Below are positions 38,413 through 43,757 of a stretch of 64,000 bases of DNA, piece after piece. The position numbers were made by a program, and so were the translations under genes. The notes beneath the pieces were generated by a model that was given only the letters and a program-made list of their open reading frames with translations, did no database searches and was not told where the DNA came from. Source of the DNA: Alphaproteobacteria bacterium (GTDB taxonomy: Bacteria > Pseudomonadota > Alphaproteobacteria > Caulobacterales > Aquidulcibacteraceae); NCBI GenBank assembly GCA_027485915.1, contig JAIXQA010000022.1, positions 62,001 through 126,000 on the forward strand, given 5' to 3'. Numbering within the stretch: the stretch's first letter is position 1; every line of letters starts with the position of its first letter.

Positions 38413-39426
38413 ATGGCTGCCAAGAAATCATCCGGGTCCGCTGCTGTTTCTCCATCTAACTTAGTCAATCGCGACGAGGCGCTCGCCTATTATCGCGATA
38501 TGCTGCTGATCCGCCGCTTTGAAGAGCGCGCAGGCCAGCTTTATGGCATGGGTTTGATTGCGGGCTTCTGTCACCTCTATATTGGCCAAGAAGCTGTTGT
38601 GGTCGGCATGCAAGCCGCTCAAAAGCCCGGTGATCAAGTCATTACGGGGTATCGCGATCACGGGCATATGCTGGCCTGCGGGATGAGCCCACGTGAAATC
38701 ATGGCGGAATTGACCGGGCGTATTGGTGGCTCGTCGCGCGGCAAGGGCGGCTCGATGCACATGTTCTCGAAAGAAGCTCATTTCTATGGTGGGCATGGCA
38801 TTGTAGGTGCCCAAGTTGCATTGGGTACCGGTCTAGCGCTCGCCAACCGCTATCGTGGTAATGACTCCGTTTCGGTGGCTTATTTCGGTGATGGCGCGGC
38901 CAATCAGGGCCAAGTCTATGAGAGCTTTAACATGGCGAGCCTCTGGAAGTTGCCGGTCGTCTATGTGATCGAAAATAACCAATATGCCATGGGCACCAGC
39001 GTAGCACGCGCCTCTGCGGAGACTGAGTTGTTCAAGCGCGGTATCAGCTTTGAAATCGTTGGCGAAGAAGTTGATGGCATGGATGTTTTGGCGGTGCGTA
39101 AAGCAGCTGAGCGCGCGTTAGACCATGCCCGTTCCGGCAAGGGGCCGTTCTTGCTGGAAATGAAGACTTACCGCTATCGTGGCCATTCCATGTCAGACCC
39201 GGCTAAATATCGCCCCAAAGATGAGCCAAAACAGGTACGCGATACGCGCGACCCCATTGAGCACATGCGCCACTATGGCTTGGAAAATGGGCTATTTACG
39301 GAAGAAGACCTGAAAGCGATCGACCGGGACGTGAAAGAAATTGTAGCCGATGCGGCTGATTTCGCTCAAACAAGCCCAGAGCCAGACCCGTCGGAGTTGA
39401 TGCGTCACATTTATGTTGAGGCCTAA
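38413..39426 (+). CDS. pdhA: Pyruvate dehydrogenase E1 alpha subunit
   Basis: Thiamin diphosphate enzyme component decarboxylating pyruvate; 337 aa. The cofactor site is seen in YFGDGAANQGQVYESFNMAS and VYVIENNQYAMGTS, and the phosphorylation-loop region in KTYRYRGHSMSDPAKY. ATG 38413 begins MAAKKSSGS; a TTG at 38401 is less likely. Unlike most relatives, pdhB is not next: an exported protein gene (39461) lies between them. Confidence 0.96.
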   Translation: MAAKKSSGSAAVSPSNLVNRDEALAYYRDMLLIRRFEERAGQLYGMGLIAGFCHLYIGQEAVVVGMQAAQKPGDQVITGYRDHGHMLACGMSPREIMAELTGRIGGSSRGKGGSMHMFSKEAHFYGGHGIVGAQVALGTGLALANRYRGNDSVSVAYFGDGAANQGQVYESFNMASLWKLPVVYVIENNQYAMGTSVARASAETELFKRGISFEIVGEEVDGMDVLAVRKAAERALDHARSGKGPFLLEMKTYRYRGHSMSDPAKYRPKDEPKQVRDTRDPIEHMRHYGLENGLFTEEDLKAIDRDVKEIVADAADFAQTSPEPDPSELMRHIYVEA

Positions 39427-39460: not shown

Positions 39461-40438
39461 ATGAAAGCCATGAAGACTACGCTCATCGCCACTGCAGCGC
39501 TTGGCCTCGTTTCAGCGATTGGTACCCAATTCCTTGGCGCGCAAGCCTTTGCGCAACCAGCTGCCCCTGCAACGGTCCCTGCACCCGCGACGAGCAATAT
39601 TCCTGAACATACCGGTTCGTTCAGCGGCGATAAGGTTGATACTTTGACCTATGTGCCAAGTTGCCCGGCCTTTAAATTCGACATGGATGCCGCGGCAATC
39701 CAGGAAAGCACCAGCCGGTCTTATGTTGAAGGCGAGAAGCGTCGCTTTGAAGCGGTCCGTGATAAGTGGGACGCGTATGAGGATTGCCTGATCGAAAATG
39801 CACGCCGTGATATCGACGATATTCGCGATTATTTGGGCGCGTATTTGGCCAAGACCGCAGACGAGGAACGGGAAATTTTCGGTGCCATGAATAATGCGGC
39901 TGCGGCCAATGTCGACCGGATTAGCAAATTGCCAATGCCAAAAGCTCCGAAGAAAAAAGGTGAAGCAGCAGCCGTTGAAGCCCCTCAAGCGGCATTGTCG
40001 GTTTGGTCTGAACCAAAGGGCCGTTTTGTTGGCACGCTATCGGGCACTGGTGCCGCGCCCAAATATGCAACTGCTTGCCCAGACGCTTTGGGTGCGCTAA
40101 AACCAGAAGCCTTTGCAACCTCCAATTCTCGCAATGAATTTAATGGGTTGTTGGACGAATTGCGTGCACTGCCTGACCGTATCAACCAAGTAAGGGCCTG
40201 CCGCCAGGAAAATGGCCAAGATGATTTTGAAGCCATCCAAAAGGCGGTCCAAGATGGCGTTAATGCGGTGTTCCAGCCCAGTAAAACCGCTTTCGAAAAA
40301 GAATATGCTGCGGTTCGCTTCCAATTGAATGAACATCAAAAGCCAGGTGGTCTGTTGGCTCCCCCAGAGATGGGTCGTGCGCCAGCCAAGAAAGCCCCAC
40401 CAGCAAAAGGACCTGCTGGCAAAGCTAAGAAGAAGTAA
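39461..40438 (+). CDS. Exported protein with a tandem Cys-Pro/Cys-x-x-Glu-Asn module, inside the pdh operon
   Basis: 325 aa, not recognised. A signal peptide (TTLIATAALGLVSAIGTQF, then AQAFA before Gln) predicts export. The mature protein shows two copies of one module: SCPAFKFD...SR...DKWDAYEDCLIENARRD (Cys68, Cys109) and ACPDALGA...SR...RINQVRACRQENGQDD (Cys206, Cys247). In both copies the Cys-Cys spacing is 41, Ser-Arg falls at positions 18-19 of the module, Asp at 34, Glu-Asn at 45-46 and Asp at 50. The tail is Lys/Pro/Ala-rich. Start 39461 has GGGAGAA upstream. It lies 34 bases after pdhA and about 100 before pdhB, so it may share their transcript, though its product is periplasmic. Confidence 0.75.
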   Translation: MKAMKTTLIATAALGLVSAIGTQFLGAQAFAQPAAPATVPAPATSNIPEHTGSFSGDKVDTLTYVPSCPAFKFDMDAAAIQESTSRSYVEGEKRRFEAVRDKWDAYEDCLIENARRDIDDIRDYLGAYLAKTADEEREIFGAMNNAAAANVDRISKLPMPKAPKKKGEAAAVEAPQAALSVWSEPKGRFVGTLSGTGAAPKYATACPDALGALKPEAFATSNSRNEFNGLLDELRALPDRINQVRACRQENGQDDFEAIQKAVQDGVNAVFQPSKTAFEKEYAAVRFQLNEHQKPGGLLAPPEMGRAPAKKAPPAKGPAGKAKKK

Positions 40439-40543
40439 GCGACCCGTTTTGGGTTTTTAAGACCAGCGGAAGTTTATGGCCGCTGTGACACACGATGAAG
40501 AGGAAGGGCCTGCCGCTGGTGGGCCCAACCTGATCCAACCAAT

Positions 40544-41908
40544 ATGGAGCCTGCCTTGTCGATTGAAATCCTCATGCCCGCACTCTCTCCAACCATGGAG
40601 GAAGGCACTTTAGCCAAATGGCTGGTGCAAGTCGGTGACACGGTCAAATCAGGTGACATTATTGCCGAGATCGAAACCGATAAGGCTACGATGGAAGTTG
40701 AAACCATTGATGAGGGCGTGGTGGAAGCCCTGTTGGTTGCTGCTGGTAGCCAAGGCGTGAAGGTCAATACGCCTATCGCGCGGATTTCTGGCGATGAGGT
40801 TGTGTCTGCGCCCGCACCCGCACCGACACCAGTGGCCGCAACACTTGCGCCTGTCGTGGCTCCCGCACCGGTTGCTGCGCCTGCATCTGTTGTGTTGGCT
40901 GATCCTGAAGTCCCAGCCGGCACGCCGATGGTCAAAGTAACGCTGCGTGATGCGCTTCGCGATGCAATGGCTGAAGAAATGCGCCGGGATCCGGACGTCT
41001 TTCTCATGGGCGAAGAAGTTGGCCAATATCAAGGTGCATATAAGGTCAGCCGGGGCCTCCTAGAAGAGTTTGGCGACCGCCGCGTGATTGATACGCCGAT
41101 TACCGAGCATGGTTTTGCGGGTATGGGTGTGGGCGCGGCTATGGCTGGCCTGAAACCAATTGTGGAGTTCATGACCATGAACTTTGCGATGCAAGCAATT
41201 GATCATATTATCAATTCTGCCGCCAAAGTGCATTATATGTCTGGCGGGCAAATCAGCGCGCCGATTGTATTTCGTGGTCCGAACGGGGCGGCTTCGCGCG
41301 TTGGTGCTCAACATAGTCATGACTATTCAAGCTGGTATGGCAATGTTCCAGGTCTAAAAGTCATCGCGCCATATGATGCCGCTGATGCCAAAGGTCTTTT
41401 GAAAGCCGCCATTCGCGATCCAAACCCAGTTGTTTTTCTAGAGCATGAGCTTCTCTATGGCATTGAGTTTGACGTGCCCGAGGGTGATGATTGGGTCGTT
41501 CCCATCGGCAAAGCCAAAGTCCGCCGTGAAGGCACGGACCTGACCATTACCGCCCATTCGCGTATGGTAGGTTTTGCCCTGCAGGCCGCAGAAGAGCTGG
41601 CGACATTGGGAATCTCGGCTGAAGTGATTGACCTACGCACTTTGCGCCCGCTCGATACAGATACCATCATCGCTTCAGTCAAGAAGACCAATCGCTTGGT
41701 TACGGCTGAAGAAGGTTGGGGGCCGATGGGCGTTGGTGCCGAGGTGATTGCTTGCGTCATTGACGGGGCATTTGATTGGCTGGATGCACCACCTGTGCGC
41801 GTCCACCAAAAAGATACGCCGCTGCCCTATGCCGCCAATCTTGAGAAATTATCCTTGCCGAATGCGGCAGATATCGTCGCGGCCGCCCGGGCCGTCACCA
41901 ATCGTTGA
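40544..41908 (+). CDS. pdhB: Pyruvate dehydrogenase E1 beta subunit with lipoyl domain
   Basis: 454 aa. An N-terminal lipoyl domain (residues 1-80, lipoyl Lys47 in [12 protein letters not shown]) and an Ala/Pro-rich linker (about 88-122) precede the E1 beta fold: [38 protein letters not shown], and [20 protein letters not shown]. Lipoyl-bearing E1 beta is characteristic of Alphaproteobacteria and some relatives. It ends with TGA at 41906-41908, and pdhC starts at 41920. Confidence 0.95.
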
Positions 41909-43246: not shown

Positions 43247-43567
43247 CTATTCGACTTCCACGACAGGCGCGTCTGGAGCTTGGCGTTGGAAGGATTCCAT
43301 GCCCTTTTCGCAGCTGGCCTTGGCGGAATAACCTTCATTGCCATCTGCAATGATATTGCCATTCTTTGACTTGGCGCGCCAATAATATTGGCCCTTGGAT
43401 TCAAAGACCTCATACTTCAGCTCACCTTTGCGGCACAATTCAATGCCATTGTCGCGCGAAGCTTTAGATGAATAGCCCTCGCTGGAGTCAGCTAAAATAT
43501 TCCCGTTGGTAGCTTTAAAGCGCCAGCGAAAACCGTCTTTGGCTTCATAAGTCTCGAATTTCGACAT
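43247..43567 (-). CDS. YegP-family (DUF1508) tandem-repeat protein
   Basis: 106 aa with two DUF1508 repeats: FETYEAKDGFRWRFKATNGN then ILADSSEGYSSKASRDNGIE, and YEVFESKGQYYWRAKSKNGN then IIADGNEGYSAKASCEKGME. The family forms small beta-rich dimers of unknown role. The start at 43567 has GGAG upstream on the minus strand; the longer frame to 43591 adds eight residues. Convergent with pdhC, divergent from the 59-aa ORF at 43758. Confidence 0.9.
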   Translation of the reverse strand: MSKFETYEAKDGFRWRFKATNGNILADSSEGYSSKASRDNGIELCRKGELKYEVFESKGQYYWRAKSKNGNIIADGNEGYSAKASCEKGMESFQRQAPDAPVVEVE

Positions 43568-43757
43568 ATTACAAACTCCTCCCAAAGGCATGAATACTTG
43601 GAACGTTTCTCTGTATTCTTGGATGATATGACACTGAGATCAGGAGGTGGGTCAAGTGTTGTTTTGCAACATTTATTTAACCACGATCTCTGGGGTCGAA
43701 TTAACCAATTTCGACTAAGCTAGTCCCACAAAAATAATCGGAGCGGAGATTCCGGAT

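Follow-up and report, generated by a model that had tools for sequence, protein, structure and literature searches.

In the window (the whole 64,000-nucleotide stretch of alphaproteobacterial DNA that was analysed), the gene between pdhA and pdhB encodes a probably exported protein made of two copies of one cysteine-pair module. Its identity as a member of an alphaproteobacterial family of exported proteins without a name is well supported, and its two modules derive from one old duplication that took place before three genera of the window's family diverged. Taken jointly, we hold the existence of the family, the duplication and the linkage to pdhB with high confidence. Judging from the genus, the window's family would be the one called Aquidulcibacteraceae in PMC12700997. 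The features of the gene and its surroundings are given in Table 1.

Table 1. Positions in the window of the two-module gene, its parts and its neighbours.
Feature	Position	Strand	Basis
pdhA (E1_dh), upstream neighbour	38413..39426	+	Pfam
Complete two-module gene; product of 325 aa (stop codon follows), probably exported	39461..40438	+	ORF call, homologues
Putative Sec signal peptide, residues 1–31 (ending AFA before Q), without Cys at +1	39461..39553	+	Sequence, by eye
Module 1, residues 48–155: predicted strands 53–55 and 63–65, helix 86–155	39602..39925	+	Alignments and AlphaFold model
Cys68 codon, module 1 first cysteine	39662..39664	+	Sequence, homologue spacing
Cys109 codon, module 1 second cysteine, helix residue 24	39785..39787	+	Sequence, homologue spacing, model
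Inter-module linker, Lys/Pro/Ala-rich; residues 168–178 pLDDT < 50	39926..40012	+	Alignment, model
Module 2, residues 185–291: predicted strands 192–196 and 200–203, helix 224–291	40013..40333	+	Alignments and AlphaFold model
Cys206 codon, module 2 first cysteine	40076..40078	+	Sequence, homologue spacing
Cys247 codon, module 2 second cysteine, helix residue 24	40199..40201	+	Sequence, homologue spacing, model
C-terminal tail, Pro/Ala/Lys-rich, KKK at end; residues 305–325 pLDDT < 50	40334..40435	+	Alignment, model
Gap before pdhB: weak terminator-like ACCC-GTTTT-GGGTTTTT, second hairpin, GC-rich hairpin	40439..40543	+	Alignments
pdhB (lipoyl and transketolase domains), downstream neighbour	40544..41908	+	Pfam

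The gene starts 34 bases after the pdhA stop codon, with GGAG 8 bases 5′ of its ATG, and the neighbourhood order confirmed by Pfam is enolase, DivIC, E1_dh, the two-module gene, lipoyl-transketolase and 2-oxoacid_dh acyltransferase. The protein is probably exported, judging the putative signal peptide by eye; the alanine that ends this peptide (A31) is invariant in all 15 two-module proteins described below. There are only four cysteines among the 325 residues, with spacings of 41, 97 and 41.

The preliminary description had read the protein as an internal duplication, with both halves in one register, a 41-residue Cys-Cys spacing and a list of shared residues, all of which are present at the module positions it gave. 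When the halves were compared from the first cysteine, 14 of 60 positions were identical; shuffling one half 20,000 times while keeping its cysteines in place gave 6.3 ± 1.9 (p about 6.5e-4). An ungapped scan of offsets gave the best result at 138 (15/60), with offset 135 reaching 14. The match is therefore moderately above chance, and from this single sequence the case for duplication is fair, not decisive.

Homologues settled the matter. A search of 61 genomes (the window's own and 60 relatives) gave some match at E up to 1 in 29 and strong matches (E 2.7e-28 or better) in 15, namely nine from the window's genus and six from two other genera. In the search of 60 genomes of the family, 19 matched at E up to 1 and 15 had two strong modules; genus g13 contributed all five of its genomes to these carriers, and g6 its only one. 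Family matches at E 0.1–0.7 in G031, G171 and G022 were taken as chance. When 398 order genomes were searched with a profile, the same 15 two-module carriers came back together with one weak match, in G292, which is a single-module relative. In every one of the 15 two-module proteins the two cysteines of each module lie exactly 41 residues apart, so the pairs are retained; three of these proteins have one additional cysteine, located within the signal peptide. Profiles of module 1 and module 2 aligned with an hhalign score of 84.5 (probability 98.4), far above the 200 column-shuffled control profiles (at most 22.0) and the reversed profile (14.1). Thus, in homologues from three genera the two halves match in register better than chance would give and, together with the constant spacing, this establishes the duplication that had been proposed.

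A maximum-likelihood tree was built from alignment A2, which holds 24 of the 30 modules, from 12 of the 15 proteins (the near-identical genomes L005, L006 and L008 were left out). The tree separated module 1 from module 2 with a support of 100, which places a single duplication before the divergence of the three genera. In these 24 modules the core reads G-x10-11-Y-x3-C-x40-C-x3-N-x3-D, where G, Y, both cysteines and D are invariant and N is nearly so. Several of the shared residues listed earlier (Cys-Pro, Ser-Arg, Asp34, Glu45 and Ile54) do not hold for the module in general.

The two-module gene is found in all nine genomes searched from the window's genus, though it diverges faster than its neighbour: identity to the five nearest genomes with a whole PdhB is 77% for the two-module protein versus 95–96% for PdhB. 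Against the six closest relatives dN/dS was 0.09–0.11, a rough value since dS was 1.26–1.70; the gene is, roughly, under purifying selection.

Library searches returned no family for these proteins. The window protein has none in Pfam, NCBIfam or PHROGs. No match above the curated cut-off was among those listed for the 15 two-module proteins against Pfam, or for 15 single-module proteins against Pfam and NCBIfam, and one single-module protein searched against PHROGs had no family there. The earlier reading of an undescribed domain family holds to this extent. Neither the window protein nor the two-module set has a lipoyl, E1, E2 or E3 domain in Pfam. Among individual candidates, LPD39 (E 0.37), the sole weak family match of the window protein, was rejected as chance, as were five unrelated PDB chains found by sequence (E 0.15–0.64). 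Literature searches, most of them on pdh genes and their surroundings, listed no paper describing the gene or an insertion between pdhA and pdhB.

The relatives of the two-module protein extend beyond these genera. The module profile A2 gave weak matches in G012, from the same family, and, across the class, in four genomes besides the window's own. In G012, G292, G476, G590 and G543 the matched protein is short, starts with what looks by eye like a signal peptide and carries a cysteine pair, to which the G543 protein adds two further cysteines. The fourth match in the class (G489) lies inside a frame that we take to be amidase-like and was treated as chance. When the G012 protein was searched against the window's genome, the two-module gene was the only match at E ≤ 10, a weak one (E 0.04).

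Profiles built from the single-module proteins reached further genomes. A profile of five seeds (A3) matched 12 of 200 order genomes; ten of these were newly reached (setting aside G012 and the two-module G005) and six of the ten have pdhB downstream, although a pdh neighbourhood was seen for just one of the five seeds themselves. The larger profile A4, made from 15 single-module proteins, matched (E up to 0.001) 22 of 398 genomes of the order and 22 of 385 of the class, the latter figure (25 loci) including weak matches counted as the searches returned them. Six of the 25 class loci (L170, L171, L173, L174, L176 and L177), as well as L195 and L203, yielded no frame bearing the cysteine pattern, and the frames obtained for other weak matches include out-of-frame noise (such as L167, L179 and L180).

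A4 contains no two-module sequence, and yet in both G005 and G006 its only match at E ≤ 0.001 is the two-module gene (3.8e-4 and 4.1e-4). Aligned with each other by hhalign, A4 and A2 gave a probability of 91.9 for a stretch of 57 columns confined to the surroundings of the second cysteine; the score of this core was 38.9, versus at most 17.8 in 200 shuffles and 13.6 for the reversed profile, and the N-terminal parts of the two profiles align poorly. The single-module pattern is C-x29-42-C-x3-E-x3-D, with E and D invariant in 30 rows. Common to both groups is therefore x3-[E/N]-x3-D after the second cysteine, where the first residue is E in the 30 single-module rows and nearly always N in the 24 modules. 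Four class-level relatives carry an extra cysteine pair soon after the signal peptide, spaced as C-x4-C in L158, L159 and L162 and as C-x3-C in L164.

All 15 two-module loci have the order pdhA, two-module gene, pdhB. Of the 22 genomes that A4 reached in the order, 16 carry pdhB downstream in the same orientation, comprising the two-module genomes G005 and G006 and 14 with a single-module gene (G012, G047, G080, G087, G145, G155, G173, G231, G244, G249, G287, G315, G356 and G371). These 14, out of 20 order genomes with a single-module match, come from three families and include one genome of the window's family, G012, where the gene sits between pdhA and pdhB. For 13 of the 14 the distance to pdhB is within about 0.5 kb; in G231 it is 1.3 kb. 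In total, a member of the family is found beside pdhB in 29 order genomes from three families, out of about 35 carriers among 398 when two genome draws are taken as one set. The great majority of the 398 have no family member at the thresholds used. These single-module exported relatives, which precede pdhB in the same orientation in 14 additional genomes from three families, are new, and they make the finding broader than first reported: a real but unnamed family, not a new kind of system.

The six matched order genomes without pdhB linkage all belong to genus g24 (family f4). Three loci from these six genomes were looked at (L210, L211 and L212), and in each the single-module gene and gyrB meet tail to tail. 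In family f5, the single-module gene is upstream of pdhB at all six loci; two of these have pdhA at a distance of 3.4 and about 5 kb, and in the other four it is absent from the DNA fetched. Outside the order, neither pdhA nor pdhB was present in flanks of up to 1.5 kb in any of the 22 matched genomes (25 loci). The linkage to pdhB is either older than the duplication or recurrent.

We also surveyed what occupies the space between pdhA and pdhB where the two-module gene is missing. The preliminary description had taken the two pdh genes to be normally adjacent. This does not hold for the window's family: in 31 other genomes lacking the two-module gene (14 of the 60 family genomes fell outside the survey), the space is empty in only two; MAPEG-like genes occupy it in 23, and the rest have a DUF3291-like gene (one), a single-module relative (one) or other genes (four, one of them glyoxalase-like). 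In 24 genomes of four other families we found a MAPEG-like gene in three, a DUF3291-like gene in two, a single-module gene in one, other genes in three and adjacent pdh genes in nine, two of these (L119 and L133) assigned by hand from frames that show pdhB directly after pdhA; in the remaining six, pdhA lies outside the fetched DNA. In both surveys MAPEG-like and DUF3291-like denote tblastn similarity (E ≤ 1e-3) to one query each, with Pfam run on one representative each, which confirmed the MAPEG assignment for the gene tested. An inserted gene between pdhA and pdhB is therefore ordinary for the window's family, and the question is which gene it is. The gap in Caulobacterales behaves as a swappable gene site, holding MAPEG-like, DUF3291-like, glyoxalase-like and other genes (L081–L100, L105–L115 and L118–L141).

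Two further observations concern the surrounding DNA. The hairpins in the gap before pdhB are shared by the window with its six closest relatives but not with the two other members of the genus that were aligned; of 28 predicted pairs in these seven rows, only two are changed on both sides. These hairpins could set different amounts of the two-module protein and PdhB. Just past pdhC, on the opposite strand (window 43250–43591, −), there is a protein with two DUF1508 stretches by Pfam.

These surveys bear on the possibility that the gene is a hitch-hiker, with the pdhA/pdhB site serving as a tolerant and well transcribed landing place for an exported protein that is unrelated to pyruvate metabolism or growth-linked dosage. 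We regard this as a serious possibility, short of probable. The varied contents of the slot in the same-family genomes, with MAPEG-like genes predominating, are as it would predict, and so is the absence of pdhB near any matched member in the 22 genomes outside the order. However, relatives as little as 17–21% identical to the G012 protein precede pdhB in 14 other genomes from three families, and in family f5 the gene keeps its place ahead of pdhB even where pdhA is distant or was not found. That the linkage persists across so much divergence suggests selection, unless it has arisen recurrently. Were the linkage mere hitch-hiking, the pdhA/pdhB slot would be a neat swappable gene site inside a core operon.

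Structure prediction gave one helix of about 70 residues per module. For the window protein (AlphaFold2, 15 rows) the mean pLDDT was 79.5 and the pTM 0.70, with most of both modules at about 87–98. For the G047 single-module protein (30 rows) the pLDDT was 84.5 and the pTM 0.56, with a helix at 57–129 and no strands, in contrast to the strand pairs of the two-module model. In all three modelled modules, from the two models, the second cysteine is helix residue 24. This position is compatible with one geometry, where the segment preceding the helix would run back along it and be fixed by the cysteine pair. Of the small, probably disulfide-bonded periplasmic domain envisaged earlier, the cysteine pair is borne out, but the small domain itself is predicted to be a long helix with a preceding N-terminal segment. 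Neither model had a PDB fold match at E ≤ 0.001. The VIA-align matches of the two-module model (V-ATPase chains, pore-forming toxins and flagellins; Z at most 6.5, rmsd 7.9) were set aside as long-helix background.

Column hydrophobicity was most strongly periodic at 3.67 residues in each of the three helices taken whole (p from shuffles 0.0056, 0.0020 and 0 of 5,000), in a scan where eleven periods were tried and the helices are mutually related. The N-terminal halves alone were weak in this respect (helix 1, p 0.21; helix 2, p 0.06). Such a period is compatible with a right-handed coiled coil and also with a helix that lies on a surface.

The best explanation overall, which we favour tentatively, is that this two-module member of the exported family is co-expressed with the pdh genes. 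A possible, still doubtful, mechanism is that of an elongated, disulfide-stapled helical spacer or scaffold in the envelope. The protein would be exported by Sec to the periplasm, where the two cysteines of each module may form a disulfide, stapling the pre-helix segment to helix residue 24 as the models suggest. The long amphipathic helices could then pair as a coiled coil or rest on a surface, giving an elongated periplasmic spacer or scaffold, and the Lys/Pro-rich linker and tail might contact an anionic component of the envelope. Through transcripts shared with pdhA and pdhB, the amount of protein would track the growth-linked expression of the pdh genes. Contact with the cytosolic pdh enzyme would be unnecessary; the relation to pdh would be one of dosage.

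A stronger form of this proposal is improbable, namely that the family is an ancient Caulobacterales envelope factor tied to the pdhB end, tuning envelope assembly or spacing to pyruvate flux, with the duplicated module doubling the spacer length in one lineage. Cross-talk between metabolism and envelope is known in Caulobacter in general terms (PMC5578688), from a paper on the TCA cycle and peptidoglycan that does not deal with the gene described here. The mixed contents of the slot weaken the case for a direct link between pdh and the envelope.

The same helices could instead belong to a lipid-surface protein that coats a membrane or carries periplasmic lipid, a reading we consider unlikely. 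The 3.67-residue period is that of apolipoprotein-like amphipathic helices, and one single-module member very weakly matched an apolipoprotein profile (E 0.017), with equally unconvincing matches obtained to apolipoprotein A-IV chains (E 0.2 and 0.35); all of these are, however, at chance level, and the 11/3 periodicity fits right-handed coiled coils equally well. It is likewise improbable that the protein is a Skp-like chaperone or holdase of the periplasm, whose long helical arms would cradle unfolded outer-membrane proteins: the probable export, the long helices and a mature pI of 8.3–8.9 in 13 of 15 members would suit it, but Pfam listed no OmpH row among the matches of the 15 two-module and 15 single-module proteins, the fold search described above gave no match, and the pI is 7.0 for the window protein and 5.1 for that of G013. 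Skp was not among the fold-search matches listed either, an absence that excludes nothing.

An exported family that is absent from the searched libraries is reduced to a simple, testable unit of two cysteines and one long helix; one internal duplication is placed on a tree; and an unexpected location next to pdhB is kept in several families. This raises the testable question of whether central carbon operons carry envelope proteins for reasons of dosage.

Among known proteins, the nearest to the two-module protein are its single-module relatives (A4 and A5), which share the signal peptide (by eye), one Cys-pair unit, a predicted helix of about 70 residues and a second cysteine at residue 24. 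They differ in having one module rather than two, Glu in place of Asn after the second cysteine, a variable cysteine spacing and other tails. The basic tail is not a family-wide property, since it is acidic in G155 and the G013 protein has the low mature pI given above; the pdhB-linked G155 relative (L150:1297–2370) has a long, acidic, Pro/Glu-rich C-terminal extension instead of a basic one. The MAPEG-type gene (PF01124) of sister genera occupies the same genomic position as the two-module gene, but is unrelated in sequence; its product is an integral membrane protein. Skp/OmpH chaperones are exported and often basic, with long helical arms, as here, whereas the module proteins have a conserved cysteine pair in each module. 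Proteins of the LprI/DUF1311 type are likewise small, exported and helical with conserved cysteines, but no such profile was among the Pfam matches of the 30 members.
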